Assembly: GCA_007026445.1 (NCBI GenBank)
Contig: VDMD01000001.1
Span: 1 to 64,000 of the forward strand
Source: Schizophyllum amplum
Taxonomy: Eukaryota; Basidiomycota; Agaricomycetes; Agaricales; Schizophyllaceae
Length of the DNA stretch: 64,000 bases
Reading direction: 5' to 3'
Under the pieces are notes generated by a model, which saw only the letters and a list, made by a program, of their open reading frames with translations, had not been told where the DNA came from and did no database searches. Shown in pieces: positions 1 through 38,947 of the stretch. Both the position numbers and the translations under genes were made by a program. Position 1 is the first letter of the stretch; each line of letters opens with the position of its first letter.

Positions 1-345
1 TCGACAGAACGACCTCCTCCTCCGTCTCGCTATCACACGAGATGTTGGATGGAGGGAGGCAGGGAGTGGAGGGTCTCCACTGCGCCCGCACTCACGCCTC
101 CGCGTACTTCAAGGCGAAGGGGTGAGGGGGCGAGGGAAGCGCTCTCTAGGAGACGCGAAGGGGGTCATCGTCAGCGCGGTTGGCAGACCACGAGGTGGAG
201 TGAAACTCGCCTTCGCTCCGGTGCGCTCACGGCAGCTCCCGCGTACGCACCCCGCCTACGACTTGTAAACGCGGCCGCCTCCCTCCGCCCCCTTCTCGCC
301 TTGGACGAGAAAATGAGCATGGCTGACGAGAAGGGGAGGAGCTCA

Positions 346-3300
346 CACTCACCGTGCTGTGGGGAGGAATCGCGCTCTCCCCTTTACGCCTTCTGCGTAC
401 AGTCGAGGCGAAGGCGCGGCGAAGGAGCATGGGGCGAGGCAGACGTACCTCGACGAGAGACGACGCGCCCACCTCGATCCATCTCGCCTTCGGCGAGCGC
501 TCAGGAGCGGGGCGAGAGACTTCGTTCCTCCCTCCACTCCTGCGTTGGGTCGCTTTTAGGCCAAGGCGCACCTACCACGACGAGTAGGGCGGCTGGGTGG
601 AGGCCCCTCCTCTCGTCGTCGTGTTGAGGCAGGGGATGTGGTCGTCGAGTGTGCAGCAATGTGCGCAAGGCAACGAGAGAGTGGGAGGGGGAGTGAAGGA
701 GGAGGATGTCGGTGGCCGACGATGGAAGGCGGGTGGGGAGCTAGAGTACGTCGAGCACCATAATGTAGTAAAAGTACGCACCAATATATGTGTTCTGCGA
801 AAACCTTGACGAGCGAGCCTGTACGAAGAGAATACAAAGGTGAGGGGAGAGACGATGAGCTTGAGTGACAACGCGAAATGAAAAAGAGGACACACCTGCT
901 ATTACTGTGAAGCTGACGAACGTCGGCGCGTAGTGAATCGGTGAAGGGAAGAATTCACGCGCAGCCAAAGTTGACGAACGCTGTGCTACACGTCGATTTC
1001 GCGCGCGTTAGCGACTTTGTGCGAGAGTAAGGCTCGCACTACGCCCTCAACCTATCTACTACAATTTACGGGTACGCTAAACCTATCTAAGAGCGATGCA
1101 CTGCCCGACCCTCGAATAAGTATCAGCTTGAGTAAAAAGAAGTCGTCGTGGTGAAACGGCCGTCAGATAACTTGGTATGCGATTATGGAGAGTGCTTAGC
1201 TGAGGTCACCACGCACCTCAAACCCAGATGCGATGCGTCCACGAGGCGGTATACAGTCAACACTAGAGAAACGAGAACACCCTCACCGAGGAGCGCTTCT
1301 GCAGGGTGCAAAGATCGTCGTCAATGACCTCCATGACGAGCACAGTGATCCGGAAGCACAGCTCTCACGACCACGGCTACGACAACTCCACTGATCATAA
1401 AGTCAACGCAAGTGGGAAGAGCGCACGCGTACTCACTTGCTAACTCGCACTGGCAGCTCAAGACCGTGAGATCCCAAAGTCGACAATTGCCGGCACGGTC
1501 CCGCGACTCTCGACGTATCGGGACTACTCTCACGACCACGGCTACAACTCCAATGATCAGCAAGTCCACACAAGTGACGAAATCAAAGCCCACTCACATA
1601 CTGACTCGTCCAGACGAGTGCGTAGACGGGCCGCGTGCCTTCATATACAAACTGACGACTGGTCCCGTTAGTGAACCGACGATCTGGCCGGACTACTCTC
1701 ACGACCACGGCTACAAGACTCATTCCGTGAGCCTAGCAACGTGTCAATAAGCCGAAAAGACAGACCTCGTTTCACGCGAACAAGGCGCGAGTTAACCGGT
1801 AAGTCAACAATCGCGCCGAACGACCGACCCATTGTTCCATTGTTTTCCCAAAATGGAGCACAACAGACCTCGCGACGACGAACGGACATCCGCGCCGGCC
1901 TGCCGCAACTCTCAAAACGGCAGACTACAGTCTGTGAGCTACTCAGCAACCACGTTCAGCGGCAGACTGGGGCACTGACGACAACCATGTCGGGGGGAAA
2001 AGGCAGCGTGGACGCTGCGCGCCCACACACGCATCAGTCAGTCCGCCATATGCATCGAGCCAGCAGTCAAACGCTTACCATGATAAGCCCGAGGTGGCAG
2101 CGCGGCCTCACGGCACCGCGAGTTGTAGGTCCAGCGCAATTGTTGAACTTCGGCGCCGAAGGGCACGCGGCGGTCACGTGATCATATGTTGAACTTCCCC
2201 GACGGCGTGCGCGGGGTGCCGTGGGCTGCAGCGTCGGTTCGGAGGGCTGGGATGGCGTCTGTCGGGGTATTCAGTCGCAATCACAGCTCGACAAAGACCT
2301 TGGTCACCGAAAAACGAGGGTTCTGGCTACAACCCCGGCGGTGCAAGCCAAAGCGAGTGAGGCCATCGATGTCGTGGGACATGGTGCCCAGGCCGGGTGG
2401 GATGGCACCTGCGAGTGTCGATGAGCATAGTATTACGTAATCCCGTTCAGGGACTCTACTCACCACAGGTCATGGATCTGCGTAGAGCGGTCGCGGCGGC
2501 GCTTGCTGCAGACGGCGAGGGCGGTCAGTCTCGAGGTCGTGGAGCATGGCGAGATCTGATGACCGTCTGCGTTGTGTAAACGTACCCACCGCGTGAGCCA
2601 ATGTTGAACTTCTGGAGAAGTCAAGTGAGGACGTGTACGCCACATGCGCTAGGCACGGTGAGCTTCAGACTAGGGACGATGAGTAGCAGCTCACCGAGAC
2701 GCACACCCACGTCCGCAGCATCGCGCCGCAAAGCGGCATCGGCGGGGTCGACCCAGCCGACCAGTGACCAGTCGTCGAGTCGCAAAGGCTCGCCGCGCGG
2801 GGTGGCACGTTATACTGCAGGTGTTGGTGGGTGACAGATTACGTAATCCAATGTGGCTTTGTACTCACCGACAAGCGTGGTAGCATGGTCGGCTTTGGGG
2901 GCCACCGCCAATCGCGACGAGCGCGCTCCCGACGGCGGGTCAGCGCTGCGCACGGTGTAAGTTGCTTACGTAATCCAACGAATATGCGCCTCACCTGAGG
3001 TGACCCCGAGTCGTGGCGCGGCTGCGCCGTCGCCCGCCGTCTGCGACGGCGAGGCTGGACTCTGCCGAGGTTGAGAACATCGTGGAGCTGCCTTCCACAA
3101 ACATACTCACCGTCACTACACTCTCGCCCCGGGAAGACTCGCCGCCCCGCCGCGAAGCGGCGGGCGCAGTGCCCAACTCTCGACGACGTGGGGGACTCGA
3201 TGTCGCTCTTGACAGCGGCGGCCGGGTGAGTCCTCGTCGACGACGAGGACAACGACGAAGAGGGCCGTGGTGGGCATGGACCGCGCGCTCTCTCTCTTTC

Positions 3301-4393
3301 GAGGCCGCATGGCGCAGCATCGAGCACTGCGCGGGTGGTTAGCTGATTACGTAAGCCAATATGTATCGCTCTCACCGGGAGTCATCCGCTCGCTGACGCA
3401 GCCAGCGATACCGGGGCGCCTGCAGAGCGTCGTCACTGGCGATGGTGACGAGCAGCAAGCGCATCGCGCTGTCCATGCGGCGGCAGCCGCATGCGGTGTC
3501 GTATTCACGACTCCCTCATTGCGCCACGCGTGCCCACCGTGAAGGCGGGACACGGGAACCCGCCATCAGGGCGGGACACCGATGACGAGAACACGTGCGG
3601 CGTCGCACGGGCTGTCCGCGGCGGCGCGCCGCGTGCGCCGATGAGCTGGGAGCGCAACATGAAACGTGCAGGACGTCCTGGCCATGTCGCGCAGGACGTC
3701 CTGGATAAGCGATATCAGTAATGGCACAAGTTGATTCTAGTGACTGACCTCGGTCACTGATAGTGAACTCGCAGTTCAATGAAGTCGCGGGTCACCGCCT
3801 AACGGGTCACTGAATGAAGTCGCGGGTCACTGAATGAAGTCGCGGGTCACTGAAGGACCGCGCGGGTCACTGACGGATCGCGCGGGTCACTGCGCGAACG
3901 CGCGGGTTACCAGCGGTGTACACAGAGGTCACTATGGGCAAGCAAGGTCAGTATCGGTGTGAGGGGAGCTTGTAGAACCGTACCTCGTAGTAGATTGGAA
4001 TAGATCGTGAAAGCGCCCTTTTGCAAAGGGTCAGTGTTGCTAAAAGGCCGGTAAGAGAGCGAAGAGAATGCGTTGTGAAGCCTGTTGGGACTGAATTAGT
4101 GACATGGGAGGTATATGGAAGTGAAAATGCGCACCGGATAGTGAATGCCGTGAAGGCGACAGGCGGGAGGATCAACGTCGAATCTAGGTAGATCGGTAGC
4201 GGTCAGAGCTATGCAAGCGGTCATCTGGATAGATACTGACCGGCAATGGGAGTAAATGGCGAAGCAAGGCAGCGGAGAGGCTGAGGAATTGAAAGTACCT
4301 TCGAAAGGATCAGTAAGTACATCAGAAAAGCGAAGTCCAGAAGACCAACTCACCTGCATCGTCAGTGTGAGCGTCACTGAGTAAGAGCGCCAT
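346..4393 (-). pseudogene. Decayed minus-strand multi-exon gene, U1 copy
   Basis: Reads leftward from an ATG at 4,393 (MALLLSDAHTDDA) below a CCAAT/TATA promoter. Exon 1 is followed by a GTGAGT donor. U1 alone keeps a clean first acceptor (CCTCAG) leading into an open exon that ends at a GTGCGC donor. The next exon hits an in-frame TAG where U2 reads through, and a deletion removes a later exon near 2,590. GTGAG-type donors on the minus strand continue at roughly 100-250 bp spacing down to the unit head (for example near 2,470, 2,870, 2,990 and 350). No protein family was recognised. The exon chain is inferred from splice consensus; the far 3' end is not defined. Confidence 0.4.
3784..3920. 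repeat. 20-bp VNTR (gggtcactgaagga core), U1
   Basis: Seven diverged repeats, each beginning gggtcac or gggttac, at about 20-bp period. The homologous sites carry about 3 (U2), 4 (U3) and 6 (U4) copies. Read on the minus strand, each repeat offers a TTCAG|TGACC-type acceptor, so the array may be a run of competing 3' splice sites of the minus-strand gene. Confidence 0.7.
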
Positions 4394-4590
4394 TGTGTAG
4401 TGAAGAGGTCGTGGTAACAGTGGAAGAAGTGATGTAGGGCGAGGTAGACGCGGGTGCAGTGAAAGGAAAGGAAAGGAAGTTCAGTGAAGTGAAAGGATTG
4501 ATTGAATGAAGGTAAGGCAGGAAAAGGAACAAAGTAGAGGAAAGTAAGGAAGGCGGAGGAGGATGCTAATCCCCGACTCCTACCCCCTCC

Positions 4591-4695
4591 CTATATACTT
4601 CCAACGCACGGCACTTGCTACCCGTCGCACTCCACAAAGTCCAAGAAAAGCGCGAAAAAGCTTGGAAAAATTCGAATCGGCGGGCCCGCCATTGG
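4591..4695 (-). promoter_or_regulatory. Minus-strand promoter, U1: TATA (4,591-4,599) and CCAAT (4,691-4,695)
   Basis: On the minus strand a CCAAT box (plus-strand attgg) lies about 95 bp upstream of a TATATAG box. The next ~150 bp are pyrimidine-rich on the minus strand, with repeated CTTTCC, and lead to the ATG at 4,393. A CACGTG lies just beyond the CCAAT box. Order, spacing and orientation are kept in all four units. Confidence 0.6.
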
Positions 4696-5421
4696 CTGAC
4701 CGGGTGCGCAGCAGGCTTGGCAGTCACGTGGGGCTCCACAGCTCCACTCGGCAAGCAGGAATCTGGGGGAGAAGACGTTCGAGAAGGATCGGAAGGTCGG
4801 GAGGGCGGCAGGAGGACAGGGGGAAGTGAGGAAGGGGCAGGAAAGTATATTCGGGGGTCATAGGGGTGTGCAGATGTCGCAGTAGGTTTTCAGAATCTGG
4901 GAGAGTGTTGCTTGGACGTGCGGCGAGGCGTGGCGTGGACGGGCGATGGAGGTGAGTATGCGGCGGGAGGGCGGCGGGGAGCGAGAGCGCGAGAAACAAA
5001 AAGGGATTTCTGCGCAGAGCGCAGATATACGTGTCTCTAGTGTGATTCTTGGCTGGGGAAATATTTTCATGAGGCTTTCAGAGTCCTGTGTCGCGGTGGA
5101 CAGACGGGACGATGCGAGGGGAGGGGAAACGAACCGTGGGAACGGGAACGCGCGAGCCGATCAAGGGCGTCCGCGGAGCCGGTGCCGTTTCTTCCCACGT
5201 CTCTCCGACCACCACCATCATGCCCTGTTTGTCGGCGGCGTCGCTGTGCACGTCGCCAGCGCTCGCAGCTGCTCTCGGCCTCGAAATTCTTTTCTTTGCA
5301 TTTTTCGCGTTCCGGCCGACACTACCCATGGCACCGAGCTGCTTTCGATGGTTCACCGCCTTCGACCTCGCCGCGCACGCGCTCACCTGAAGTCCGCGCC
5401 CTACCAACACGTCGAGTTGCC

Positions 5422-5523
5422 TTCGACCTCGTCGCCGCTTCGACTTCGCCACAAGTCGCCCTCGGACTCCAGTCGCCCCTGGCCTCGACTCCAGTCGCCC
5501 TCGGCCTTGCCTCAAGTCGCCGC
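5422..5523. repeat. Degenerate 22-bp minisatellite, U1
   Basis: Imperfect 22-bp repeats with core cctcgcctcaagtcgccc. They lie in a plus-strand open stretch (4,946-5,974) whose translation is low-complexity and differs in length and frame among units, so I do not call it a gene. Confidence 0.6.
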
Positions 5524-6479
5524 GTTGTACTTTGCGCTAGTCCACCATGTTCAACATCGACTGCAGCCTCCGACCTCGCATCAGCATACGGCTTCGACAC
5601 CGTCACGTCGCTTCGACATGTGTAGCGGCCTGTCCAGCAACATCCTCGGGCCGTCCATTAGCCTTACTCACCCTCCATACTCGCAGACTGTCCCTTTGCT
5701 TGCAATGTGGACAAGCTTCTTGCTTCCGTCTCTCGACTCCCAACCCCCGAGTCCGACTTCCGGCTTCCGACTCCTGCAGGTCCTCGACTTTGAATTTGAC
5801 TCCAGGTTCTCCCAACATGCCGCGTCGACATGCAACCCTCAGCACCCGACACCCGACACCCGACTCTGCCCTCCCATTGCTGCATTCTGCATGATGTTGG
5901 CACCTCCCCCGCTACGCAAAGAACCCAGTACTCGCTTGCCTTCCTGCTCAAATAGCCGGAGTGCAGCGGGGTGAGTTAGCGGGTTGCGGGTATGCTCGAG
6001 TGTTGGGTGAAGCGGGGTTCTCGGTATATACACACATCCCGTGTATTAGCTCGTGCGAAGGCTAATTGAATTACGTTCTGACGAGCTTCTGTTGTGTGTG
6101 CGGTGGAGTTCCCTTCTCGTCTCTGCTTGCAGTCGGACAGGTACGAGTCTGATCATGAGCTCGCACGCCACTCATGCACCTGCGAGCTTATTCCAAATCT
6201 GCTGACTTGCAATGATGCAGCCATTGTATTGCTCTGAGCCTTGGAGGAGTAGAGTGGAGAATAACACGTTGCTATTCAGAACTCGAGCCCAAAAGCCAGC
6301 CAGGAAGACAGCCATCCACAGCAAGGGCCACCGCTGGTATTGGTATATAGAGTAGAAATATGGCTCGCAGCCATTGCCATCAGGAATCTTCGAGCTGTAT
6401 TCGAGTCTGACTAGAGTAGCAATGGAAGATAAATGAGCCAGCCAGCCAGAGCAGAGAAGAGAGACTACCACCCACAGCA

Positions 6480-6556
6480 ATGGCCACCCCTTGTTCGGTA
6501 TATAGAGTAGAAATACGATGGCCACCCCTTGTATCGGTATATAGAGTAGAAATACG
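6480..6556. repeat. 39-bp VNTR, U1 (2 copies)
   Basis: Two adjacent copies (one of 38 and one of 39 bp) plus an isolated copy near 6,320. Each copy carries ggtatatagagtag. On the minus strand the 39-bp period keeps a frame coding a 13-residue hydrophobic repeat (VFLLYIPNKGVTI type) inside an open frame ending near 6,771. That frame begins only with GTG, so translation is unproven. Confidence 0.8.
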
Positions 6557-6652
6557 ACTAACTCACGAAGGCCCCGGGGGCTCTGACCGCCGCGATCAGG
6601 CCGACACCACAACACGAGGCAGGCCCTGAGCAGACCGAGTCTGAGGTCTAGA

Positions 6653-6779
6653 TCACGTGACAGAAAGCAGGGAAGGTCCAACGTCGAAGGGAACACAAAA
6701 CTGGCAGCAGCAGAGCGAGCAGCGAGCGGCGAGTGTCGAACGCGCTCAAGTCCAACTTTGGGTGACGTCACTACGTCAT
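6653..6779. promoter_or_regulatory. CACGTG and CRE palindromes upstream of SPT7 copy 1
   Basis: TCACGTGA (6,653-6,660), a Cbf1/USF-type site, and TGACGTCA (6,763-6,770), a CREB/ATF-type site, followed by a second half-site TACGTCA. They lie 570-690 bp upstream of the truncated SPT7 start and are conserved in every unit, including the one feeding the complete SPT7. The sites are seen; their function is inferred. Confidence 0.55.
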
Positions 6780-7339
6780 GCGTTCGTCAGGTGACTCGGT
6801 CCCCGTGCCGCCGCACAAGAGGCGAGCCGTCTACGTCGCCCTGACAGTGACAGTGGGAGGCCATCTGCGGGGCTTTGCCATACAGTGAATGGTTTGCCCT
6901 TCAGAGATCCAGGGTTGCCTTGCTCGACAAGTTGTCCATTGTTCGTCGTCTGATTGTTAGCGGACCTTCGGGCCGATGCATCCACGCGCGCATCAACGCG
7001 AACAAATAACGCCTCTTGTCCCAATCCATCACTCGAGTACCGAAGTACTCATGTTCACCTTGCCTTCCAAAGTCCTTCGGCACCCATACTAAGACCTTCG
7101 TAACAGGCAGACGAAACGCAGTCACAAGAGCAACGTTTTCGCGCTACCAAGGTCCGGCAAGGACGACACAAACAACGCTCGACTCGCCACCCTGGGCTCT
7201 GACCAAGCTCCTTCACACCCGCGCCCGCGAGTCCAGAAGTCTTCCCGAACCCTCGCCATCGCTCATATCTCCAACTACTACTCTCGGGCTTGAAGACAGG
7301 GTCAACGACTAGCATATTTGGAGCCAGCTGCCGCTCGCG

Positions 7340-8781
7340 ATGAATGTGCGTAGCTTGTGGCAAACGAGAATATGCAACTCACGAGACTAACAGAACTTAC
7401 TGCGGACGCTACGAGAAAACCAGAAACAGAATGGGTACCACAATCCAGACCTCAAGCGATTGCTCGCCGAAGTCAAGGCGGAACGCGTGCGTGGTCGCGC
7501 TCTCTCTCGCACCTCACCTTACACCCCCACAGAAGGCCCACGACACCAGCAAGCTTACAGAACCTTTCTACGAGTCCCTTGAAGGGATGCTACATGAACT
7601 TCGAACGGTGACAATTGTACGTGCAAGGCAGCTCCATTGTTCTCGTTCTCATCCTATTGTTCTCAGGATAATCATGACGCGGAAGCGTTCCTCAAACCCG
7701 TCTCTAGGGCAGACGCTCCAGACTACCATGAAGGTGCGCGCTCTTTACCTTGTCGTCGCTCCGCTCATCCTCGCCCAGTCATCCAGGAGCCCATGGATCT
7801 CCAGACCATGCTCAAGAAGGTCCGCCAGCGGTCGTACAAGTCGAAGCGCGAGTTCAAGGACGACCTCGACCGCATTTGGGACAACTGCTTCCAGTACAAC
7901 GCTGCCGAGGTGCGTGATCGACCCACGCACAGCTTCCCCCTTCTCACCGATACTCTCAGAACCACCCACTGCGCAAATGCGCCACACGCCTCAAGGCCAA
8001 GGCCGAGTGCCTGCTGCACAACCTCACCGATCGCAAAGAGCGCTCCGACCCTGTCATACCCCCCGAACTCATCCCCCCCTCCAAGGCGAACGGCGTCAAC
8101 GGCCACAGCCGCACCCCGTCCTCTCACGCCATCAAGATCCCCATCGCCCGCCGCAACACCCCGGGCGCTGGGCCCGCGAAACGAGGAGGCAACCCCGACG
8201 ACTTTCCCAACGAACTCGCCGTCCCGCGCACGACTGACGGAATGGCCGAGTTCAAACGCCTCGACGACCAGTTCGCGGCGCTCGACTCGGCGATCGAGGG
8301 CAAGCCGGGCTCATCCTCAGCGATGGCGGAGCGACTGCGCGAGCTCGCGCGCGGTGCGATGCCGCTCTTCGCCCCCGGCACCAAGCGCAAGCTGGACGAG
8401 GACGCGGAGACGCCGCCCGCCAAGCGTCACAGCACCCAAGAGCAGCGCGAGCTCCACGACCTGTGGTGGCAAGTGAACCAGAAGTCGGACGTGCTCCTGG
8501 GCAACGGTCTCCCGCCCATCACGCACGCGTCCTCCGCCCCACCACGCACCCTCAACGCGCCACCGCGCGGACCCAACGCGCCACCGCGCGGGTCCAATGC
8601 GCCACCACGCACCCTCAACGCCCCACCGCGCGGGCCCAATGCGCCACCGCGCAGGCCCAAGAAGCGGCGTCCCCCTCCCCATGCACCGCCGAATCCCAAG
8701 TCTCTTTTATCGATGATGAACAGCAACATCGAAACCGTGCGTAGGATGCGTACCGTGAACGCCAAGCTGTGCGTACCGTGA
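7340..8781 (+). pseudogene. SPT7: Truncated SPT7 copy 1: N-terminal region plus bromodomain, no histone fold
   Basis: Exons 7340-7345, 7394-7486, 7533-7616, 7667-7733, 7779-7909 and 7960-8781 match exons 1-6 of the complete gene at 36,006. All five introns keep GT donors and AG acceptors. Joined, they give an open 400-residue protein (MNNLLRTLRENQ start) with the whole bromodomain, including the YN that contacts acetyl-lysine. The bromodomain exon differs from the complete gene at three of 131 bases, one change being Arg for Lys. The frame stops inside a fivefold 23-bp expansion (8,749-8,863). Similarity to SPT7 continues to about 9,000 but out of frame. The copy lacks the histone fold through which Spt7 pairs with Ada1. 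It could be a pseudogene or a translated bromodomain-only paralog. Confidence 0.85.
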
Positions 8782-8863
8782 ACGCCAAGCTGTGCGTATC
8801 GTGAACGCCAAGCTGTGCGTATCGTGAACGCCAAGCTGTGCGTATCGTGAACGCCAAGCTTGG
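8749..8863. repeat. 23-bp expansion (5 copies) that truncates SPT7 copy 1
   Basis: Five tandem copies of cgtaycgtgaacgccaagct plus tg(tg/gg). Complete SPT7 and copy 3 have one copy; copy 2 has three. Four extra copies add 92 bp, which is not a multiple of three, and the second copy supplies the TGA that ends the frame. Confidence 0.9.
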
Positions 8864-9000
8864 CGCGCTGGATGGGGAGGGGGAGGCTCTTCCGCCGCTT
8901 CCGGCGTTGAAGAGGCGCGCATGGCAGCGGAAGAGGTGCGCATAGCAGCGGCAGAGCGGCCCTGGCGGGTACCGACGCGCGGAGGTGGCCGGCGTGTGGG

Positions 9001-9573
9001 CGCGCATAATGGCAACGAGGAGGCGCGCATGATGGCGACGAGGAGGCGCGCATGATGGCGACGAGGAGGCGCGCATGATGGCGACGAGGCGGGAGGGGGG
9101 GAGGGGAGGGGCGTTTGCGAGGGGGGAGAGAGGGGGAGAGGAGGAGGCGCGACGAGGGGGAGGGAGAAGGGGATGTTGGCGAGGGGGAGGGGCGTGTGCG
9201 AGGGGGGAGGGGCGTGTGCGAGGGGGGAGGGCGGGAGTAGAGGAGGCGCGGAAACGGGGAGGGGCGCAGGGGATGGGGGCAGGATGCCCCTTCGTTGGGG
9301 AGGAGGAATGCCCCTTCGTTGGGGAGGAGGAATGCCCCTTCGTTGGGGAGGAGGCCGGACGGGGGAGGCAGAGACGGGGGGAAGGGAGAAGGGGAAGAGG
9401 GGAGGATCGCGGCGTTGGGGAGGTTGGCGAGGGAGGGGCACGAGGCGGAAGGAAGAGAGGGCGGGAGGTCACAGAGAGGGAGGGAGGTCACAGAGAGGGC
9501 GGGAGGTTGGCGAGGAGGGGGGAGGAGGGATGTGCGGCGGGGAGGGCGAGGAATGCACGGCGAGGCGAAGGAG
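9001..9573. repeat. Purine-rich G-tract after SPT7 copy 1
   Basis: About 570 bp of almost pure G/A with runs of 4-6 G on the plus strand. It contains nested tandem repeats: three of a ~23-bp gcgcgcatgatggcgacgag type (9,013-9,080) and three 24-bp repeats with atgccccttcgttgggg (9,285-9,356). Long proline-rich frames on the minus strand here are composition artefacts. The tract has no counterpart at the matching point of the complete SPT7. Confidence 0.8.
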
Positions 9574-9590
9574 TACTAACGCACCTACAG
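9574..9590 (+). promoter_or_regulatory. Splice-like branch point and acceptor at the U1/U2 junction
   Basis: TACTAAC (9,574-9,580) followed ten bases later by the end of CTACAG. This is the canonical fungal branch point and 3' splice site. It sits immediately after the purine tract and is repeated at the U2/U3 and U3/U4 junctions. Confidence 0.5.
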
Positions 9591-10098
9591 CACATGTACC
9601 GTTGATGGGCTGGGAACGTACCGTCGACGCGTCCACCAGCGTCGTCGTCGACGCAAGCCTGCGCCGGCGTCAACGCGCCCACTAGCGTCGTCGTCGACGC
9701 AATGCCTGCACCGGCGTCAACGCGGTCGGGGGGCGACGAGGTAGGTGGAGCTTACCTTTAGTCATAGCGCTCACACCGTTTATAGCGCCCACGTCGTCCA
9801 TAGCGCCCACGTCGTCCTCGGAGGGTCTCCACTGCGCCCGCACTCACGCCTCCGCGTACTTCAAGGCGAAGGGGTGAGGGGGCGAGGGAAGCGCCTCTCT
9901 AGGAGACGCGAAGGGGTCACCGTCAGCGCGGTTGGCAGACCACGAGGTGAGTGAAACCCGCCTTCGTTCGGTGCGCTCACGGCAGCTCCGCGTACGAACG
10001 CACCCCGCCTACGACTTGTAAACGCGCCGCCTCCCTCCGCCCCCTTCTCGCCTTGGACGAGAAAATGAGCATGGCTGACGAGAAGGGAAGGAGCTCAC

Positions 10099-27375: not shown

Positions 27376-27438
27376 GACGACCAGTTCGCGGCGCTCGACG
27401 ACCAGTTCGCGGCGCTCGACGACCAGTTCGCGGCCCTC
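27376..27438 (+). repeat. In-frame 21-bp repeat (3 x DDQFAAL) in SPT7 copy 3
   Basis: Three copies of gacgaccagttcgcggcgct plus c. Copies 1 and 2 carry one, the complete SPT7 two. The period is a multiple of three, so the frame is kept. Confidence 0.9.
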
Positions 27439-27945
27439 GACTCGGCGATCGAGGGCAAGCCGGGCTCATCCTCAGCGATGGCGGAGCGACTGCGCGAGCT
27501 CGCGCGCGGTGCGCTGCCGCTCTTCGCCCCCGGCACGAAGCGCAAGCTGGACGAGGACGCGGAGACGCCGCCCGGGAAGCGTCACAGCACCCAAGAGCAG
27601 CGCGAGCTCCACGACCTGTGGTGGCAAGCGAACCAGAAGTCGGACGTGCTCCTGGGTAACGGTCTCCCGCCCATCACGCACGCGTCCTCCGCCCCACCAC
27701 GCACCCTCAACGCCCCACCACGCAGGCCCAACGCCCCACCACGCACCCTCAACGCGCCACCACGCACCCTCAACGCGCCACCGCGCGGGCCCAATGCGCC
27801 ACCGCGCAGGCCCAAGAAGCGGCGTCCCCCTCCTCACGCACCGCCGAATCCCAAGTCTCTTTTATCGATGATGAACAGCAACATCGAGACCGTGCGGAGG
27901 ATGCGTACAGTGAACGCCAAGCTTGGCGCGCTGGATGGGGAGGGG

Positions 27946-28379
27946 AATGCCCCTTCGTTGGGGAGAAGGACGGACGGGGGAGGCCGGACGGGGGAGGAGG
28001 ACGGACGGGGGAGGCCGGACGGGGGAGGAGGACGGACGGGGGAGGCCGGACGGGGGAGGAGGACGGACGGGGGAGGAGGAAGGACGGGGGGAAGGGAGAA
28101 GGGGAAGAGGGGAGGATCGCGGCGTTGGGGAGGTTGGCGGCGTTGGGGAGGTTGGCGAGGGGGAGGTTGGCGAGGGGGGGGGGTCACGAGGCGGAAGGAA
28201 GAGAGGGCGGGAGGTCACAGAGAGGGCGGGAGGTCACAGAGAGCAGGCCCCCTCGATGGCGAGGAGGGGGGGGAGGCAGATAAGGGGCGAGGGGGAAGGG
28301 AGGGGGAGGAGGGATGTGCGGCGGGGCGAGGGATGCACGGCGAGGAGGGGGAGGGTTGTGCGGCGGAGGCGAAGGGGAG
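27946..28379. repeat. Purine-rich G-tract fused to SPT7 copy 3
   Basis: The tract begins directly after gatggggaggg. It contains repeats of gacgggggaggccggacggg type (27,970-28,090) and one block matching the atgccccttcgttgggg repeat of U1. Compared with U1, the SPT7 end and the first part of the tract are missing, consistent with a deletion between short gatggggagg-like matches. Confidence 0.75.
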
Positions 28380-28396
28380 TACTAACGCACCTACAG
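28380..28396 (+). promoter_or_regulatory. Splice-like branch point and acceptor at the U3/U4 junction
   Basis: TACTAAC (28,380-28,386) and CTACAG (ending 28,396), with the same internal spacing as at the two earlier junctions, although the flanks have diverged. Confidence 0.5.
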
Positions 28397-28804
28397 GACA
28401 CGAATCGTCGGAGTGCGGGGAACGTATCATTGACGCGTGAACCAGCGTCGTCGTCGACGCACAAGCCTGTGCCGTCGACGCAATGCCTGCACCGGCGTCA
28501 ACGCGGTTGGGGGGCGACGAGGTAGGTGGAGCTTACCTTTGGTCATAGCGCTCATGCTATCCGCAGCAGCGTGACGCGCCCGCCACCTCTTCCGGACGCG
28601 CGAAGGAGGGCGTCGTGAGCGCGGTCGAAAGACTGAGACTCACCTTCGTTCGCGTTTACAGCTACCGACACGCACCTCGACACGCCTCATCCCTCAAAGT
28701 CCGGCCCCTTCTCGCTATGTGCCGCCTCCCCCTTCTCGCTACGCGCCGCCTCCCTCCGCCCCCCGAGAAAATCAGCCTGGCTGACGAGAAGGGGAGGAGT
28801 TCAC

Positions 28805-31800
28805 ACTCACCGTGCCGTGGCGAGGAATCACGTTGTTCCCCCTGCGTTGCTCGAGGCGAAGGGAACGACCGCCGAGGAGGGGCGAGGCAGACGTATCTCG
28901 AATAGGAGGAACGCCCCCACCCGACCCACCTCGCTTTCGGCGAGCGTTCACGAGCGGGGCCGAGAGACCTCGTCCCTCCCTCCCTTCCACCTGCGTCGCT
29001 ATTAGGCCAAGGCGATACCGGGAAGCCATACCACGACGACATGGGCGGCTGGGTGAGGCCCCTCCTCTCGTCGTCGTGATACAATGAGTTGGGGAGGGGT
29101 GTGAAGTGATGTGCGGAAGGCAACGAGGGAGTGGGAGGGGGAGAGGGAGGGGGAGTGGGAGGGGGAGGATGTCGGTGGCCGACGATGGAAGGCGGGTGGG
29201 GAGCTAGCTGAGTACGTCGAGCACCATAATGTAGTAAAAGTACGCACCAATATAATATTGTTTCCCGAAATTCTTGACGAGTGGGCCTGTACGAAGAGAA
29301 TACAAAGGCGAGGGGAGAGACGATGAGCTTGAGTGACAACGCGAGAGAACAAAGAGGACACACCTGCTATTACTGTGAAGCTGACGAGCGTCGACGCGTA
29401 GTGAATCGGTGAAGGTAAGAACTCACGCGCAGCCAAAGTTGACGAACGCTGTGCTACACGTCGATGTCGCGCGCGTTAGCGACTTTGTGCGAGAGTAAGG
29501 CTCGCACTACGCCCTCAATCTACCTACTACAATGTACGGGTACACTACACCTATGTAAAAGCCATGTACTGCTCAGCCCTCGAATAATTAAACAACTTGA
29601 GCACAAAGAAGTCGTCGAGGTGAAACGGCCGTCATAGTGCTTAGCTGAGGTCACCACGCACCTCAAACCCAGATGCGATGTGTTCTCGGGGAAGTATGCA
29701 GTCAATACCACAGGGATGAGAAACTCACTCTCACCAACGAGCGCTTTTGCAGAGCGCGGCGTTCCGACGAGTGTGGTCAAGGCCGTCGCCAGTGACCACT
29801 AAAATGAGCCTGGTCAAGCAAAACAGCCCTCACGACCACGGCTACGACAATTCCACTGATCATAAAGTCAACGCAAGTGGGAAGAGCGCACGCGTACTCA
29901 CTTGCTAACTCGCAGTTCAAGACCGTGAGATCCCAAAGTCGACAATTGCCGGCACGGTCCCGCGACCCTTGACGTATCGGGACTACTCTCACGACCACGG
30001 CTACGACAACTCCAATGATCAGCAAGTCCAGACAAGTGACGAAATCAAAGCCCACTCACATATTGACTCGTCCAGACGAGTGCGTAGACGGGCCGCGTGC
30101 CTTCATATACAAACTGACGACTGGTCCCGTTAGTGAACCGACGATCTGGCCGGACTACTCTCACGACCACGGCTACAAGACTCATTCCGTGAGCCTAGCA
30201 ACGTGTCAATAAGCCGAAAAGACTGACCTCATTGCACGCGAACCAGGCGCAAGCTGACCGGTAAGTCAACGAGCAACCCATTGTTCCATTGTTGTTCCAA
30301 AAGGGAACAACAACAGACCTCGCGACGACGAACGGACATCCGCGCCGGCCTGCCGCAACTCCCAAAACAGCAGACTACAGTCTGTGAGCTACTCAGCAAC
30401 CACGTTCAGCGGCAGACTGGGGCACTGACGGCAACCATGTCGGGGGGAAAAGGCAGCGTGGACGCTGCGCCCCACGCACGCGCGCAGTCGATCCACCATA
30501 TGCGTCGAGCCAGCAGTCAAACGCTTACCATAATAAGGCCGAGGTGGCAGCGCGGCCTCATGGCACCGCGAGTTGTAGGTTCAGCGCAATTGTTGAACTT
30601 CGGCGGCGAACTTGAAGGGCACGCCGCGGTGGTCACATGATCCCATGTTGAACTTCCCCGACGGCGTGCGCGCGGTGCCGTGGGCTGCAGCGTCGGTTCG
30701 GAATGGCGTCTGTCGGGGTATTCAGTCGTGATCACAGCTCGACAAAGACCTTGCGCACCGAAAAACGAGGGTTCTGGCTACAACCCCGGCGGTGCAAGCC
30801 AAAGCGAGTGAGGCCATCGATGTCGTGGGACATGGTGCCCAGACCGGGTGGGATGGCACCTGCGAGTGTCGATGAGCATCGTATTACGTAATCCCGTTCA
30901 GGGACTCTACTCACCACAGGTCATGGATCTGCGTAGAGCGGTCGCGGCGGCGCTTGCCGCAGACGGCGAGGGCGGTCAGTCTCGAGGTCCTGGAGCATGA
31001 CGAGATCTAATACACGATGAGCATTGAGAAAGACCGTCTGCGTCGTGTAAACGTACCCACTGTCGATACACGTGTAGTGTACACTCCTGGGCGAGCCTTG
31101 CGGGGTACCGCACACGCTGGCGGCGGCGGGGCACGCCGCAGTGACGTGACTCTATGTTGAACTCCCGGAGAAGTCGAGTGAGGACGTGTACGCCACATGC
31201 GCTAGGCACCGTGAGCTTCAGATAGGGACAATAAGTAGCAGTTCACCGAGACGCACACCCACGTCCGCAGCATCGCGCCGCAAAGCGGCATCGGCGGGGT
31301 CGACCCAGCCGACCAGTCGTCAAGTCGCAAGGCCCCGCCGCGCGAGGTGGCACGCGTTGGTGGGCGACAGCTTACGTAATCCAATATGCCTTTGTACTCA
31401 CCGAAAAGCGTGGTGCATGGCGGACTGTGCCGCCACCGTTAACCGCGACGAGCGCGCTCCCGACGGCGGGTCAGCGCTGCGCACGGTGTAAGTTGCTTAC
31501 GTAATCCAACGAATATGCGCCTCACCTGAGGTGACCCCGGGTCGTGGCGCGGCTGCGCCGTCGCCCGCCGTCTGCGACGGCGAGGCTGGACTCTGCCGAT
31601 GTCGGGAAGGACATCGTGGGCTTGAGCATGAAGCCGCGTTCTACGACGTACTCACTGTTACTACACGTGGAACGTGCTCTTGCCCCGGGAAGACTCGCCG
31701 CCCCGCCGCGAAGCGGCGGGCGCAGTGCCCAACTCTCGACGACGTAGGGGAGATGTCGCTCATGACAGCGGCGGCCGGGTGAGTCCTCGTCGACGACGAG

Positions 31801-32859
31801 GACAACGACGAAGAGGGCCGTGGTGGGCATAGACCGCGCGCTCTCTCTCTTTCGAGGCCGCATGGCGCAGCATCGAGCACTGCGCGGGTGGTTAGCTGAT
31901 TACGTAAGCCACCATATATTGTGCTCACCGGGAGTCGTCCGCTCGCTGTCGCAGACATCGAGACCAGGGCGTTCGTCGTTGACGAGGGCGATGGCGAGCA
32001 GCAAGCGCGGTACATGCGGCGGCAGCCGCATGTCGTATCGTATTCGCCACTCCCTCATCGCGCCACGCGTGCCCGCCGTCAAGGCGGGACACGCGAGCGC
32101 GTCCGACGGCGCGACACGTGCGGCGTCGCACGGGCTGTCCGCGGCGGCGCGCCGCGTGCGTCGACGAGCGCAGAGCGCGACGTGAAACGTGCAGCACATC
32201 TTGGATAGGCGGTATCAGTGATGGCAGAAGTTGGTTCTAGTGACTGACCTCGGTCACTGATCATGAACTCGCAGTCCAATGAAGTCGCGGGTTACCGCCT
32301 AACGGGTCACTGAATGATTGCGCGGGTCACTGAAGGATCGCGCGGGTTACTGAAGGATCGCGCGGGTCACTGCGCGAACGCGCGGGTCACCAGCGGTGTA
32401 CGCAGAGGTCACTATGGGCAAGCAAGGTCAGTATCGGTGTGAGGGGAGCTTGTAGAAACATACCTCGTAGTAGATTGGAATAGATCGTGAAAGCGCCCTT
32501 TTGCAAAGGGTCAGTGTTGCTAAAAGGCCAGTAAGAGAGCAGCGTTGTGAAGCCTGTTGGGACTGAATTAGGGAGACTGGAGGTATATGGAAGTGAAGAT
32601 GCGCACCCTTCGTGAAAATGCGCACCGGATAGTGAATGGTGCGAGGATCAATGTCGAATCTAGATAGATCGGTAGCGGTCAGAGCTATGCAAGCGGTCGA
32701 CTGGATAGATACTGACCGGCAATGGGAGTAAATGGCGGATCGAGAGAGCGGGCAGGGTAGCATTGAAAGAAAGGATCAGTAAGTACAGCAGAAAAGCAAA
32801 GTCAAGAAGTGAAACTCACCTGCATCGTCAGTGCGAGCGTCACTGAATAAGAGCGCCAT
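28805..32859 (-). pseudogene. Decayed minus-strand multi-exon gene, U4 copy
   Basis: Exon 1 is 32,820-32,859 (MALLFSDARTDDA). Well-formed introns read on the minus strand are 31,880-31,928, 31,477-31,525, 31,202-31,246, 31,007-31,056 and 30,860-30,914. All are 45-55 nt with GTGAG/GTACG/GTGAA starts and AG ends. The exon 31,526-31,879 is open for 118 codons. Exon 31,057-31,201 reads HVLTRLLREFNIESRHCGVP and on. The intron whose donor is at 31,401 has lost the CTGCAG acceptor still present in U1/U2, and the segment after exon 1 has no clear acceptor. I therefore treat it as decayed. Function is unknown. Confidence 0.45.
32283..32400. repeat. 20-bp VNTR, U4 (about 6 copies)
   Basis: Six gggtcac/gggttac repeats at ~20-bp period. 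Confidence 0.7.
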
Positions 32860-33059
32860 AATGTAGTGAAGAGATCGTGGTAACAGTGGATGAAATGATG
32901 TAGAGGCGAGGTAGACGCGGGTGCAGTGAAAGGAAAGGAAAGGAAGATCAGTGAAGTGAAAGGATTGATTGAATGAAGGTAAGGGAGGAAAAGGAACGAA
33001 GTAGAGGAAACTAAGGAAGGCGGAGGGAGGATGCTAATCCCCGACTCCTACCCCCTCCC

Positions 33060-33163
33060 TATATACTCGCAACGCACGGCACTTGCTACCCGTCGCACTC
33101 CACAAAGTCCAAGAAAAGCGCGAAAAAGCTTGGAGAAATTCGAATCGGCGGGCCCGCCATTGG
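33060..33163 (-). promoter_or_regulatory. Minus-strand promoter, U4: TATA (33,060) and CCAAT (33,159-33,163)
   Basis: Same arrangement as in the other units, ~200 bp upstream of the ATG at 32,859. A pyrimidine-rich stretch on the minus strand (around 32,930-32,945) precedes the start, and a CACGTG lies at about 33,193. Confidence 0.6.
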
Positions 33164-33918
33164 CTGACCAGGTGCGCAGCAGGCTTGGCAGTCACGTGGG
33201 GCTCCACAGCTCCACTCGGCAAGCAGGAATTTAGGGGAGAAGACGTTCGAGAAGGGTCGGAAGGTCGGGAGGGCGGCAGGAGGACAGGGGGAGTGAGTAA
33301 GAGGGTTTATGGTATAGACGGGGGTGAGAGGGGTGTACAGATGTCGCAGTAGGTTTTCAGAATCCTGGAGAGTGTTCCTTGGATGTGCGACGAGGCGTGG
33401 ACGGGCGATGGAGGTGAGTATGCGGCGGGAGGGCGGCGGGGAAAGGCAGGGAGGCGAGAGCGCGAGAAAAAGAGTTTTCTCCGCAGAGCATAAAAATACG
33501 TGTTTCTCGTGTATTTAGAGGCGCGGAAAACATGTTTATAAGGCTTTCAGAGTCCTGTGTCGCGGTGGACAGGCGGGAGGAGGCGAGGAGAGGGGGAAAC
33601 GAACCGTGGGAACGGGAACGCGCGAGCCGATCAAGGGCGTCCGCGGAGCCGTTGCCGTTTCTTCCCACGTCTCTCCGACCACCACCACCACCATCACCTC
33701 CCAAGCCCTGTTGTCGGCGGCTTGCGCTGGAGTCGCTGGCGACGTTCCCCGTCGCTCGCCGCTGCTCTCGGCCTCGAAATTCTTTTCTTTGCATTTTTCG
33801 CGTTCCTGCCGACACTACCCATGGCACCGAGCTGCTTTTGACGGTTCACCATCCCGTCGCACGCCTTCGACCTCGCCGCGCACGCTCTCACCTGAAGTCC
33901 GCGCCCTACCGACACGTT

Positions 33919-34012
33919 GAGTCGCCTTCGACCTCGCCTCGAGTCGCCCTCGGCCTCATTTCAAGTCGCCCTCGGCCTCGCCTCAAGTCGCCCTCGGCCT
34001 CGCCTCGCGTCG
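33919..34012. repeat. 22-bp minisatellite, U4
   Basis: About four 22-bp repeats with core cctcgcctcaagtcgccc. The flanking segment 33,200-34,900 has only low-complexity frames of unequal length among units; I see no supportable gene in it. Confidence 0.65.
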
Positions 34013-35024
34013 TCGCCTTGGCCTTCAGTCAAATCACGGGCTTCGACCTCGACTGCAACCCCCTTGCCTTCAGTCAACTCCCTGGCCCCGACCGCTGATC
34101 TCCTTCCGACAGGCTCGCATCAAGTCACCGGTGTCCGACCTCGCTACAAGTTGCCGCCTCACCTCAAGCTGCCAGCCTCGACCTTCCGTCGAAGTGTTTG
34201 CCTTTGGTCGAGCACACCGCCTCGGATCGCCTCCGTGGTGCCCTCACTGATCACCTTCCGACAGGCTCGCCCGGAGCTTCCGCCTTCGACGGCCTTGCAA
34301 CAAGCTTCCACCTTTTGCCCTCGCAACAAGCTGTCGTCCTCAACCTCGTCTGGCACCCTTCATACTCGCAGGTCATCTATTACCCTCAACTTGTACAAGC
34401 TCCTCGCTTCCGAGACAACTCTGAACACCCAAGGAACGCTCGATATCCTGCCCTTGACCCCCGACACCGATTTTTGATTCTGACCCTCGCCGCGACATGC
34501 GACTCCCGACCGCGATCTGATTGCCGCATTCTGCATGATGTCGGCAGCTCCCGCCACGCGAAGAACCCGGTACTCGCTCGCCTTCCCGCTTCCGGAGTGC
34601 AGCGGGGTGAGTTAGTGGGATGCGGGGCTGGTGTCGGGTGGCGATGTGGGGTTCTCGGTTTATACACGTGTCCCGTGTATTAGCTCGCGGTAATGCTAAT
34701 TGATTTCTAAGTGAATGTCACATCGACTTGAGCTGTGCGTGCATCGACTGCTTTTGGCTTCGAGCACCGGTGCCTCTGCCTGCTTGCACAACAGGTACTG
34801 TACGAGTTTGGTCTTGTTGCACTCATTGAGGGACTTGTGAGCTTATTGAGAATAAAACCTTGCTATCCAGAACTCGAGTCCAAGGCCAGCCAGGGAGAAA
34901 GCTACCCACAGCAAGGGCCAGTATATAGAGTAGAAATGCAAGGCACCCCTCGAGTAGAAATACGACTAACTCACGAATGAAAATAAATGAGCCAGCCAGA
35001 GAAGAGAGACAGCCAACCACAGCA

Positions 35025-35218
35025 AGGGCCACCCCTTGTTCGGTATATAGAGTAGAAACACGATGACCACCCCTTGTATCGGTATATAGAGTAGAAATAC
35101 GATGGTCACCCCCTTGTTCGGTATATAGAGTAGAAATACGATGGTCACCCCCTTGTTCGGTATATAGAGTAGAAATACGATGGTCACCCCCTTGTTCGGT
35201 ATATAGAGTAGAAATACG
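35025..35218. repeat. 39-bp VNTR, U4 (5 copies)
   Basis: Copies at 35,025-35,062 (38 bp), 35,063-35,101, 35,102-35,140, 35,141-35,179 and 35,180-35,218. The last three are nearly identical, indicating recent expansion. Each carries a TATATA. The minus-strand frame 34,966-35,424 stays open through all of them. Confidence 0.9.
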
Positions 35219-35314
35219 ACTAACTCACGAAGGCCCCGGGGGCTCTGACCGCCGCGATCAAGCCGGCACCACAGCACGAGGCAGGCCCTGAGCAGACCGA
35301 GTCCAAGGTCTAGA

Positions 35315-35448
35315 TCACGTGACAGCAAGCAGGGAAGGTCCAACGTCGAAGGGAACACAAAACTGGCAGCAGCAGAGCGAGCAACGAGCAGCGAGCGGCG
35401 AGTGTCGAACGCGCTCAAGTCCAACCTTGGGTGACGTCACTACGTCAT
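35315..35448. promoter_or_regulatory. CACGTG and CRE palindromes upstream of complete SPT7
   Basis: TCACGTGA (35,315-35,322) and TGACGTCA (35,432-35,439) followed by TACGTCA. They lie 570-690 bp before the SPT7 ATG and are the same blocks found before the truncated copies, so all four probably share regulation (inference). Confidence 0.55.
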
Positions 35449-36005
35449 GCGTTGGTCAGGTGACGTGCGCTCGTGCCGCCGGCCTAAAGGCGAGAGGCGA
35501 GCCGTCTACGTCGCCCTGACAGTGACAGTGGGAGGCCATCTGCGGGGCTTTGCCATACAGTGAATGGTTTGCCCTTCAGAGATCCAGGGTTGCCTTGCTC
35601 GACTGTTCGTCGTCTGATTGTTAGCGGACTTTCGGGCCGATGCATGTGTCCACGTGCATCAACGCGAACAAATAACGCCTCTTGTCCCAATCCATCACTC
35701 GAGTACCGAAGTACTCATGTTCACCTTGCCTTACAAAGTCCTTCGGCACCCATACTAAGACCTTTGTAACAGGCAGACGAAACGCAGTCACAAGAGCAAC
35801 GTTTTCGCGCTACCAAGGTCCGGCAAGGACGACACAAACAACGCTCGACTCGCCACCCTGGGCTCTGACCAAGCTCCTTCACACGCGCGCCCGCGAGTCC
35901 AGCAGTCTTCCCGAACCCTCGACATCGCCCATATCTCCAACTACTACTCTCGGGCTTGAAGACAGGGTCAACGACTAGCATATTTGGAGCCAGCTGCCGC
36001 TCGCG

Positions 36006-38947
36006 ATGAATGTGCGTGGTCTTTAGGGAACACTTATATTCAACTCACGGGATTGACAGAACCTACTGCGGACGCTACGAGAAAACCAGAAACAGAATGG
36101 TTACCACAACCCAGACCTCAAGCGATTGCTGGCCGAAGTCAAGGCGGAACGCGTGCGTGGTCGCGCTCTCTCTCGCACCTCACCTTACACCCCCACAGAA
36201 GGCCCACGACACGAGCAAGCTTACAGAACCCTTCTACGAATCCCTTGAAGGGATGCTACACGAACTTCGAACGGTCACAATCGTACGTGCAAGGCAGCGC
36301 CATTGTTCTTGTTCTCATGCTATTGTTCTCAGGATAACCATGACGCGGAAGCGTTCCTCAAACCCGTCTCTAGGGCAGACGCTCCAGACTACCATGAAGG
36401 TGCGCGCTTCCTACCTTGTCCTCGCTCCGCTCATCCTCGCCCAGTCATCCAGGAGCCCATGGATCTCCAGACCATGCTCAGAAAGGTCCGCCAGCGATCG
36501 TACAAGTCGAAGCGCGAGTTCAAGGACGACCTCGACCGCATTTGGGACAACTGCTTCCAGTACAACGCTGCCGAGGTGCGTGATCGACCCACGCACACCT
36601 TCCCCCTTCTCACCCGATACTCTCAGAACCACCCGCTGCGCAAATGCGCCACACGCCTCAAGGCCAAGGCCGAGTGCCTGCTGCAGAACCTCACCGATCG
36701 CAAAGAGCGCTCAGATCCCGTTATACCCCCCGAACTCATCCCCCCCTCCAAGGCGAACGGCGTCAACGGCCACAGCCGCACCCCGTCCTCTCACGCCATC
36801 AAGATCCCCATCGCCCGCCGCAACACCCCGGGAGCTGGGCCCGCGAAACGGGGAGGCAACCCCGACGAGTTTCCCAACGAACTCGCCGTCCCGCGCACGA
36901 CTGACGGAATGGCCGAGTTCAAACGCCTCGACGACCAGTTCGCGGCGCTCGACGACCAGTTCGCGGCCCTCGACTCGGCGATCGAGGGCAAGCCGGGCTC
37001 CTCCTCAGCGATGGCGGAGCGACTGCGCGAGCTCGCGCGCGGTGCGATGCCGCTCTTTGCCCCTGGCACGAAGCGCAAGCTGGACGACGACGCGGAGACC
37101 CCGCCCGCCAAGCGTCACAGCGCCCAAGAGCAGCGCGAGCTCCACGATCTGTGGTGGCAAGCGAATCAGAAGTCGGACGTGCTCCTGGGCAACGGGCTGC
37201 CGCCTATCACCCACGCGTCCTCCGCCCCACCACGCACCCTCAACGCGCCACCGCGCGGGCCCAATGCGCCACCACGCACCCTCAACGCGCCACCACGCAC
37301 CCTCAACGCGCCACCGCGCAGGCCCAAGAAGCGGCGTCCCCCTCCCCATGCACCACCAAATCCCAAGTCGCTTTTGTCGATGATGAACAGCAACATCGAG
37401 ACCGTGCGGAGGATGCGCACTGTGAACGCCAAGCTTGGCGCGCTGGATGGGGAGGGTGAAGCTCTACCGCCGCTTCCGCCCGGAGTGGAAGAGGCGCGCA
37501 TCGCAGCGGCAGAGCGGCCGTGGCGGGTGCCGACCCGTGGAGGTGGCCGGCGCGTGGGTGGGCTGGAGCTAGGGCAGGAGAACGCGGACGCGTGCATGAA
37601 CTGGATGTCGCGCAAGGCGCTCGAGCACGCCGGATTCCAGGGCGCATCCCGGGCTACGCTCGATATACTCTCCGGAGTGGGCGCGCAGTATCTTCTGAAC
37701 GTCGGCCGGACTCTGCGCTTCATGTCGGACAAGTTTGGCAAGAAGATGACGCCTGAGGTACGTGCGGGTTTGGGTTGCGCGGTAGTGCGACGCTGACAAC
37801 GGTCCCAGGAAATCATCCTCCATACACTATTTGAGAGCGGGGTGTCGGAGATCCAGGATCTGGAGAGGTACATCAGTGAAGATGTGGAGAGATTTGGGGC
37901 GCGGATGGGCGACTTGGAGAGCAAGCTCGTGAAGGTGTACCGCGATCGGGTGCGTGCAGTGCTCTACTATTGGTGCTTCGGACTGACGATGACATCTAGG
38001 TTACCGCACCGGAAGAAGAAGTTTTGTGTGATGAAGGCCTGTTCGATGAAGACGAAGAGGAGGACGAGTTGGACCCATTGGCACGCGGAGACCTCGCAAA
38101 CATCCTTGGCGACGAGGACGACTACCTTGGCCTCATCTCCTCTGGCGTCACCGCCGACCTCGGCGTGTCGAGGCTCACCGTACCACGTCGGCTCATGCGT
38201 GGCAAGAAGGCGCGTCCTGTTGTGCCTACGGAAGCACGTCTACCAGAGGAAGACAACCCGCATGCACCGCCGCCGCCCTTTGTCCCGCTTGACTCCAACT
38301 CGGTCGATGATCAGATTGGTTTGCTGAGGCCGTATTACCAAGAACGTATGCGCTCAGTGCAAGCTCCCGCACCCGCCGCACCCGCTATACCGTCCTTACC
38401 TGGTCCGAGACCGCTTGCACCTCCGCCTTTGACGGTACCGGCGCCGTTACTTCCGCCACCCCTGCCAGGTCCAGTCATGCCCAATGCGCTGCCGACATCT
38501 GTATCTCTACTGCCTCCTCCCGTTGCCCGACCCGCGCTGCCGCCACCGTCGCCCACGCATCCCGTCGTCCTGCCCGACGACGAACCCTCGTCCGCGCAGT
38601 CCAAGATCGGCGCGCTTGGGCAGATCACGCGCAATGCGCCGCCCAAGAAGGCCGAGGTGGCTGCTGCGCGACGCGCGGAGAAGGAGCGCGCGAAGGGTGG
38701 TGGGCCAGGGAAGGGGACTGCGGCAGCCGCCTCGCCTGCTGCTGATACGGGGGGGAAGAAGAGGAAGGGGGAGGGAGAGGACGGGCAACCGGCGAAGAAG
38801 CGGAAGAACATGGGGATTGGGAGTGGTAATTGGAAGAGGAAGAAGAGTGGGGAGCCGAGGCAGCCACAGCAGGGGCAGCAAGGGGGGAAGCAGGGCCAAG
38901 GGCAGCAGATGGCATATCCCGCGCCCGTTGTAGCTGCTAGTGCGTGA
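36006..38947 (+). CDS. SPT7: Spt7, SAGA complex subunit (complete gene, 8 exons, 866 aa)
   Basis: Exons 36006-36011, 36060-36152, 36199-36282, 36333-36399, 36445-36575, 36627-37757, 37809-37949 and 38000-38947; all junctions are GT-AG and in phase. Spt7 scaffolds the SAGA coactivator in the nucleus. The bromodomain (about residues 40-150) includes VIQEPMDLQTML and QYNAAENHPL, with the acetyl-lysine Asn at 124. A charged, proline-rich linker follows, with two DDQFAAL and five NAPPR-type repeats. The histone fold (about 443-535, GQENADACMNWM onward) is the part that pairs with Ada1 in known Spt7. Next come an acidic segment and a proline-rich, then Lys/Gly/Gln-rich, tail. It is shorter than yeast Spt7 (1,332 aa), chiefly because the region before the bromodomain is brief. 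The start was chosen because exon 2 reads straight into family-like sequence (NPDLKRLLAEVKAER) and the preceding TAG bars extension. Confidence 0.95.
36930..36971 (+). repeat. In-frame 21-bp repeat (2 x DDQFAAL) in SPT7
   Basis: Two copies of the 21-bp unit that is single in SPT7 copies 1-2 and triple in copy 3. Confidence 0.9.

Follow-up and report, generated by a model that had tools for sequence, protein, structure and literature searches.

A recurrent, apparently non-coding repeat body between direct copies of gene 5' parts in Schizophyllum amplum

In ends-in (Campbell-type) integration, n integrated bodies are accompanied by n+1 homologous segments. Other insertions restore the gene that they enter, as prophages do at tRNA genes and mobile elements do in mitochondrial genes. 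Alternative first parts are spliced to a common 3' half in the protocadherin and UGT1A clusters, which provide the model for one of the explanations considered below. In yeast, circle formation followed by tandem integration is described for the XylA eccDNA (PMC4352087), and Helitrons that capture gene fragments are reported from fungi (PMC4289320). The structure described here, from Schizophyllum amplum, resembles ends-in integration and the XylA eccDNA in that homologous direct repeats flank a foreign body, form tandem multimers and make the arrangement reversible by recombination. It differs in that the body is natural, apparently non-coding, diverged and found at several unrelated genes, and in that the integrating molecule is deduced from sequence. 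As with gene-restoring elements, the insertion lies within a gene and a part borne by the element rebuilds that gene, but here the genome is nuclear, the rebuilt part is the 5' part with its promoter region, and a six-frame Pfam search of one body (unit 4) found no integrase or endonuclease domain. Tandem segmental duplications likewise give direct copies that end in a complete gene; in contrast to these, the same body accompanies five different genes here and the outermost gene copy has no body before it. Among the open-licence PMC papers listed by the searches, none described this structure.

The SPT7 array and its repeat body

The window, a stretch of 64,000 nucleotides, is the start of a 4.7-Mb contig (C1). 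Its positions 68-37456 consist of four direct repeats, in agreement with the first-pass annotation, which had reported a block of about 9.5 kb in four copies. The SPT7 start codons lie exactly where that annotation had placed them, at 7340, 16923, 26453 and 36006, with a start-to-start spacing of 9.53-9.58 kb, and all four-copy repeat families listed in the window have a spacing of 9.2-9.9 kb. Every SPT7 copy retains a six-exon 5' gene model. The 3' half is present only after the copy at 36006, so that, as had been claimed, the last copy alone is complete. This copy (u4) runs on the plus strand from 36006 to 38947, the end of the last open frame, with exons at 36006-36011, 36060-36152, 36199-36273, 36333-36399, 36445-36575 and from 36627 onward. 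It matches the bromodomain family PF00439 in Pfam, and Bromo_TP with a score under the Pfam cut-off. The truncated copies, also on the plus strand, occupy 7340-8781 (u1, from the ATG to the stop of its frame), 16923-18302 (u2) and 26453-27944 (u3, the frame of which continues through a purine-rich tract to 28440).

Four units is the correct number for the window, but the array itself is larger. C8:75494-80053 equals window 1-4561 at 99.6% identity over 4567 columns, including 13 gap columns, and on the evidence of this overlap contig C8 is the left neighbour of C1. It contributes one further full unit and the outermost SPT7 5' half (ATG at C8:63579), which gives a total of six 5' halves and five spacers, the bodies, of ~7 kb. 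Between units, most blocks of body and gene sequence are just 73-94% identical. On the right side of SPT7, no second copy of window 45400-49300 was found in the assembly: the search listed a single match, at the query's own place. The search with 37600-49300 is weaker evidence, because genome searches with queries of at least 10 kb can miss long matches: the query's own place was unlisted, and one such search also omitted neighbouring units on C13 that another search found. All 22 matches listed for 37600-49300 fall in 43552-44392, a dispersed repeat with matches of up to 97% identity, some of them weak, on 15 contigs. Inverted copies of one stretch flank the SPT7 region at window 59572-64000 and C8:56881-61774 (87% and 71-72% identity). 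This stretch was found only at these two places and as weak pieces on C223, and its outer end at 59572-64000 lies past the window edge. Among the 120 proteins listed in a search with the 5' product of the last SPT7 copy, S. commune has one SPT7 cluster, of full length (871 aa, 9 member sequences).

In gene orientation, each unit is made up of a gene 5' part, a purine-rich tract, the body, TATA-like repeats, a 31-mer and a promoter-like stretch that leads to the next 5' part. In the window the four bodies lie on the plus strand at approximately 68-6899 (unit 1, extending left into C8), 9700-16479 (unit 2), 19200-26011 (unit 3) and 28560-35564 (unit 4, with homology to other loci over ~29031-35471). 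The invariant 31-mer is found at 6557-6587, with the TATA-like repeats immediately upstream, and at 16116-16146, 25670-25700 and 35219-35249, always on the plus strand. The purine-rich tracts follow u1 at 8790-9620 (G-rich), u2 at 18310-19050 and u3 at 27881-28450, again on the plus strand. They are 72-81% purine in the SPT7 array and are present at other loci too. The promoter-like stretch past the 31-mer contains CACGTG and, in some units, TGACGTCA.

The body is a repeat of ~6.5-7 kb that looks non-coding, since Pfam, Rfam and ORF-conservation scans were all negative. A six-frame Pfam scan of 28741-36000, covering the unit 4 body, and an Rfam scan of the whole window gave no match, and none of the 45 ORFs of at least 80 aa stays open and in frame in every one of the four other full units. 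On present evidence, the divergent minus-strand gene region proposed within the block is thus no gene. A known RNA family in the invariant block was also rejected as a candidate; the one match up to E 10 had an E value of 6.7, far under the family cut-off. Relative to u4, the bodies carry 56-75 indels of frameshift size per ~6.5 kb.

The same body at other genes

A genome search with unit 4 matched its body elsewhere, mostly at 66-73% identity, and did not match its SPT7 part. The matches are on C13, C224 (two places), C113 and C288, with partial pieces on C246 and C171. The adjoining genes are a VIT/VWA gene (C13), an ANTH/AP180-like gene (C224 and C113), a HECT/HUL5-like gene (C224) and, on C288, a CH-domain actinin-like gene with a divergent POB3-like gene. 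The names AP180, HUL5, POB3 and actinin come from reading the translations; Pfam backs ANTH, HECT, VIT, VWA_3 and CH, and POB3 is a putative name. An amplification specific to SPT7 is ruled out by the recurrence of the body with other genes. The earlier reading of a tandem duplication seeded on SPT7 is therefore retained for the tandem duplication with a complete terminal gene, but the recurrent part is the body, shared with these other genes.

The 31-mer occurs exactly 15 times in 49.65 Mb (four on C1, one on C8, three on C13, one on C113, five on C224 and one on C288), never with 1-3 mismatches, and its backwards control does not occur at all. It is identical in all 15 bodies, and counting bodies by matches to their central part, without the 31-mer, gave the same 15 places, query included. 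The partial body pieces at C246:249579-250207 and C171:20683-21310 are 71% identical and lack the 31-mer; they may be relics that sit on two haplotypes.

At all six occupied loci the gene 5' parts outnumber the bodies by one (n+1 to n), as in ends-in integration, and a single orientation is kept. The outermost 5' part comes first, followed by the purine tract, the body and finally the complete gene. The numbers of 5' parts and bodies are 6 and 5 for SPT7, 4 and 3 for VWA, 4 and 3 for AP180 on C224, 2 and 1 for AP180 on C113, 3 and 2 for HUL5 on C224, and 2 and 1 for actinin/POB3 on C288. These counts exclude a 0.5-kb SPT7 exon 6 fragment on C10, tandem pieces beside AP180, a weak VWA match at C13:221731-222027 (297 bases, 70%) and HUL5 matches of up to 316 bases on C224 and C113. 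Upstream of the outermost gene copy, no match to the 31-mer or the body was found at any of the six loci. Homology between the outermost and inner copies begins ~427 bp before the ATG in SPT7, 123 bp in VWA, 120 bp in AP180 and 66 bp in HUL5. In four of the five genes, then, the duplicated part has its upstream limit close to the gene start. On C288 it begins within POB3, an estimated ~1.5 kb upstream of the actinin-like start. There the actinin-like gene after the body continues, and the POB3 copy with the 3' part is on the opposite side. The duplicated gene part is ~1.6-2.1 kb long.

HUL5 is present in uninterrupted form on C113, at 483.9-485.5 kb, with no 31-mer nearby. The outermost C224 copy matches C113 both in its upstream flank (84.7% over 1070 columns) and in its 5' half (87.7% over 1767 columns). 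The alignment of the complete C224 copy with C113 sets in at the ATG and extends into the 3' half (94.5% over 3574 columns); the ~66 bp directly before the ATG show gapped similarity. Parts of the C113 upstream flank also match, at 68-73%, a stretch past the other end of HUL5, which is probably a paralogous gene. For AP180, C224 and C113 are 96.9% identical in their outermost copies over 3504 columns, of which ~2.2 kb is upstream flank, and have the upstream limit in common. The native flank is thus seen for HUL5 by comparing C224 with C113, and for AP180 on both contigs, which are both occupied. Body number differs between C224 and C113 (AP180, 3 versus 1; HUL5, 2 versus 0). AP180 and HUL5 are similarly spaced on the two contigs (~211 kb on C224, 186 kb on C113), and C113 and C224 are therefore most simply two haplotypes, although duplicated blocks are also possible.

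Origin of the arrays

We give about an even chance to the reading that the arrays arose by single-crossover integration of a molecule carrying the body and a gene 5' half, followed by unequal crossing over. The founding molecule, a circle or a template-switch product, would have carried the body with a gene 5' part and would have entered an uninterrupted allele by homologous recombination in the ends-in manner. The body would in this way have settled in several unrelated genes, each time flanked by direct copies of the 5' part of the gene in question, with one gene copy keeping its 3' half at each occupied locus. Unequal crossing over between the 5' parts would add or remove units and could restore an uninterrupted gene. 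The complete gene would now be driven by the end of the body, and the native promoter would have been left with the outermost truncated copy. Intact truncated 5' halves may reflect ongoing exchange with, or recent origin from, functional alleles.

The presence of one body at several genes, the relation of n bodies to n+1 5' parts, the native flank, the uninterrupted HUL5 and the difference in copy number all point to integration. Several observations argue against it. The gene-side end of the body is not a fixed terminus, the AP180 and HUL5 junctions finishing in different bases. The duplicated part on C288 starts inside POB3. Furthermore, C113 and C224 could be duplicated blocks and not haplotypes, and the uninterrupted HUL5 on C113 could be a pop-out product and not the ancestral state. 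Homologous integration alone leaves the pairing of one body with five genes unexplained.

More tentatively, the body may belong to a nuclear selfish element that inhabits essential genes by bringing along the 5' half of the gene it enters. Such an element would insert by homology into an uninterrupted allele, rebuild the complete gene under a promoter in its own end, leave the native promoter on the stump, and multiply and spread among alleles by recombination. If this is true, ends-in integration as known from plasmids would have a counterpart in nature, at five unrelated gene loci in a single fungus, which would explain how a non-coding repeat can reside in essential genes without death of the host. 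It would also predict swapped promoters in the occupied genes, and insertion, expansion and loss of arrays would be countable between haplotypes. It appears to be a novel means by which a repeat element can persist in genes without destroying them.

Known classes of mobile DNA were considered as candidates and rejected. Helitrons are alike in capturing gene fragments. No Rep-helicase was found in the unit 4 body, and this genome has 18 matches to Helitron_like_N elsewhere, many of which lie in long open frames. However, the gene part is at an apparently native locus, and neither of the two placeable junctions (AP180 and HUL5) has the 3' CTRR end and A/T insertion of Helitrons. An LTR retrotransposon does not fit, as the unit 4 body has no gag/pol Pfam domain and the flanking direct repeats are parts of the host gene. 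A cut-and-paste DNA transposon does not fit either: 28741-35600 contains 15 inverted pairs, but no pair links the two body ends, and the duplication of ~1.6-2.1 kb is not short. Introns are kept in all copies aligned (six of SPT7, and those of VWA, AP180 and HUL5), which indicates copying at the DNA level and rules out copying through RNA as a processed retrocopy.

Coding state of the truncated copies and remaining explanations

The truncated copies could be working genes, their N-terminal half-proteins (in SPT7, the bromodomain part) being kept by selection, which we regard as unlikely. All five truncated SPT7 copies have the ATG, five GT-AG introns and an intact frame. Pairwise dN/dS among the SPT7 copies is 0.03-0.10 at dS 0.08-0.19, and private codon changes are synonymous in 24 cases and non-synonymous in 6 for the five truncated copies, versus 9 and 2 for the complete copy. 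SPT7 exon lengths differ only by multiples of three in the gene-only alignment, in contrast to the many frameshift-size indels of the body. In the whole-unit alignment u1 and u2 each show one exon 6 gap that is not a multiple of three, which is absent from the gene-only alignment. Counting only exon segments that could be framed, dN/dS is 0.15 for one VWA pair (350 codons), and one AP180 pair (372 codons) has no non-synonymous and 12 synonymous changes. Among the four HUL5 copies dN/dS is 0.12-0.23 (0.12-0.20 in pairs with a truncated copy), as a rough value, since 25 of ~400 codons are in the wrong frame in all four rows. Public gene models also exist for some truncated copies.

Several features do not fit maintained half-proteins. 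The C-terminal tails vary between the truncated SPT7 units; in three of the five, the frame would continue through the purine tract as a long Arg/Gly-rich tail. The truncated actinin-like copy on C288 has a net deletion of 60 bases with loss of CH-domain residues. The VWA copies v1 and v2 carry 10 extra bases close to where they are truncated, and v1 has a 41-base insertion as well; all these indels lie outside the 350 codons counted. The HUL5 unit ratios resemble the 0.23 of the apparent alleles, as expected of recently functional alleles. The complete copy as sole donor of gene conversion was rejected as the reason for the intact frames. The truncated SPT7 copies differ from u4 by dS 0.08-0.18 with dN/dS 0.04-0.09, and conversion into a decaying copy would be expected to leave a higher ratio. 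The introns of C8b and u1 show no difference in 248 positions, an exchange tract.

The units diverge about as much as apparent alleles do: dS is 0.14-0.16 between HUL5 units, and between C224 and C113 it is 0.12 for HUL5 and 0.15 for AP180. The sister species S. commune is described as the most polymorphic species known (PMC9187340). Because the units differ like apparent alleles in a highly polymorphic fungus, we prefer recent exchange with functional alleles to maintained half-proteins; such exchange accounts for the intact frames no less well than function. If this is right, a truncated gene model that looks intact in a highly polymorphic fungus is not necessarily a functional gene. The first-pass annotation had considered the copies diverged enough to be real and old. 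That they are real is upheld, but age is unreadable from this divergence, since the SPT7 unit dS is similar to that of apparent allelic copies in the same assembly.

It is rather improbable that the body is a transposon-like element that makes target duplications of ~1.6-2.1 kb, for example by staggered breaks at both ends of a transcribed 5' region. The target does recur as direct repeats on either side of the body, with their upstream limit close to the gene start in four of the five genes. However, no transposase or other domain was found in the six frames of unit 4, and the ends of the body have no matching inverted arms. The left limit of the body falls in the variable purine tract, and its right limit is not fixed in the two junction alignments; this speaks against an end of the transposase type. 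We know of no transposon with target duplications of this length.

An ordinary tandem duplication, in which the body already lay upstream of the genes and was duplicated along with their 5' halves, is still less probable. The direct layout with a single terminal complete gene is expected of any break within a gene, but the outermost copy lacks an upstream 31-mer or body at all six loci, and there is no 31-mer near the C113 HUL5. It is very improbable that the array offers alternative first parts, each unit's promoter and 5' half being spliced to the single common 3' half. The 5' halves show similar coding constraint, and a donor-like GTGCGT lies near the truncation point of u1 and u2. By eye, however, this stretch is absent from u3, C8a and C8b, and splicing would have to span ~9.5-48 kb, compared with SPT7 introns of 45-59 bases. 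An assembly artefact is least credible of all, because six loci share one layout, units are mostly 73-94% identical, junctions against the second contig are sharp and C8 and C1 overlap at 99.6%, even though the array crosses a contig break and the overlap gaps and one-base frame breaks in HUL5 suggest residual errors.

Those frame breaks, one-base length differences in two HUL5 copies (L023 and L029) that are presumed working genes, are either sequencing errors or real. In SPT7 exon 6, the number of in-frame repeats of the DDQFAAL and APPRTLN type varies between units (window 7340-37434). The exon 6 fragment on C10 (L028, C10:10585-11110) lies within low-complexity DNA and is included in an annotated 808-aa protein model.
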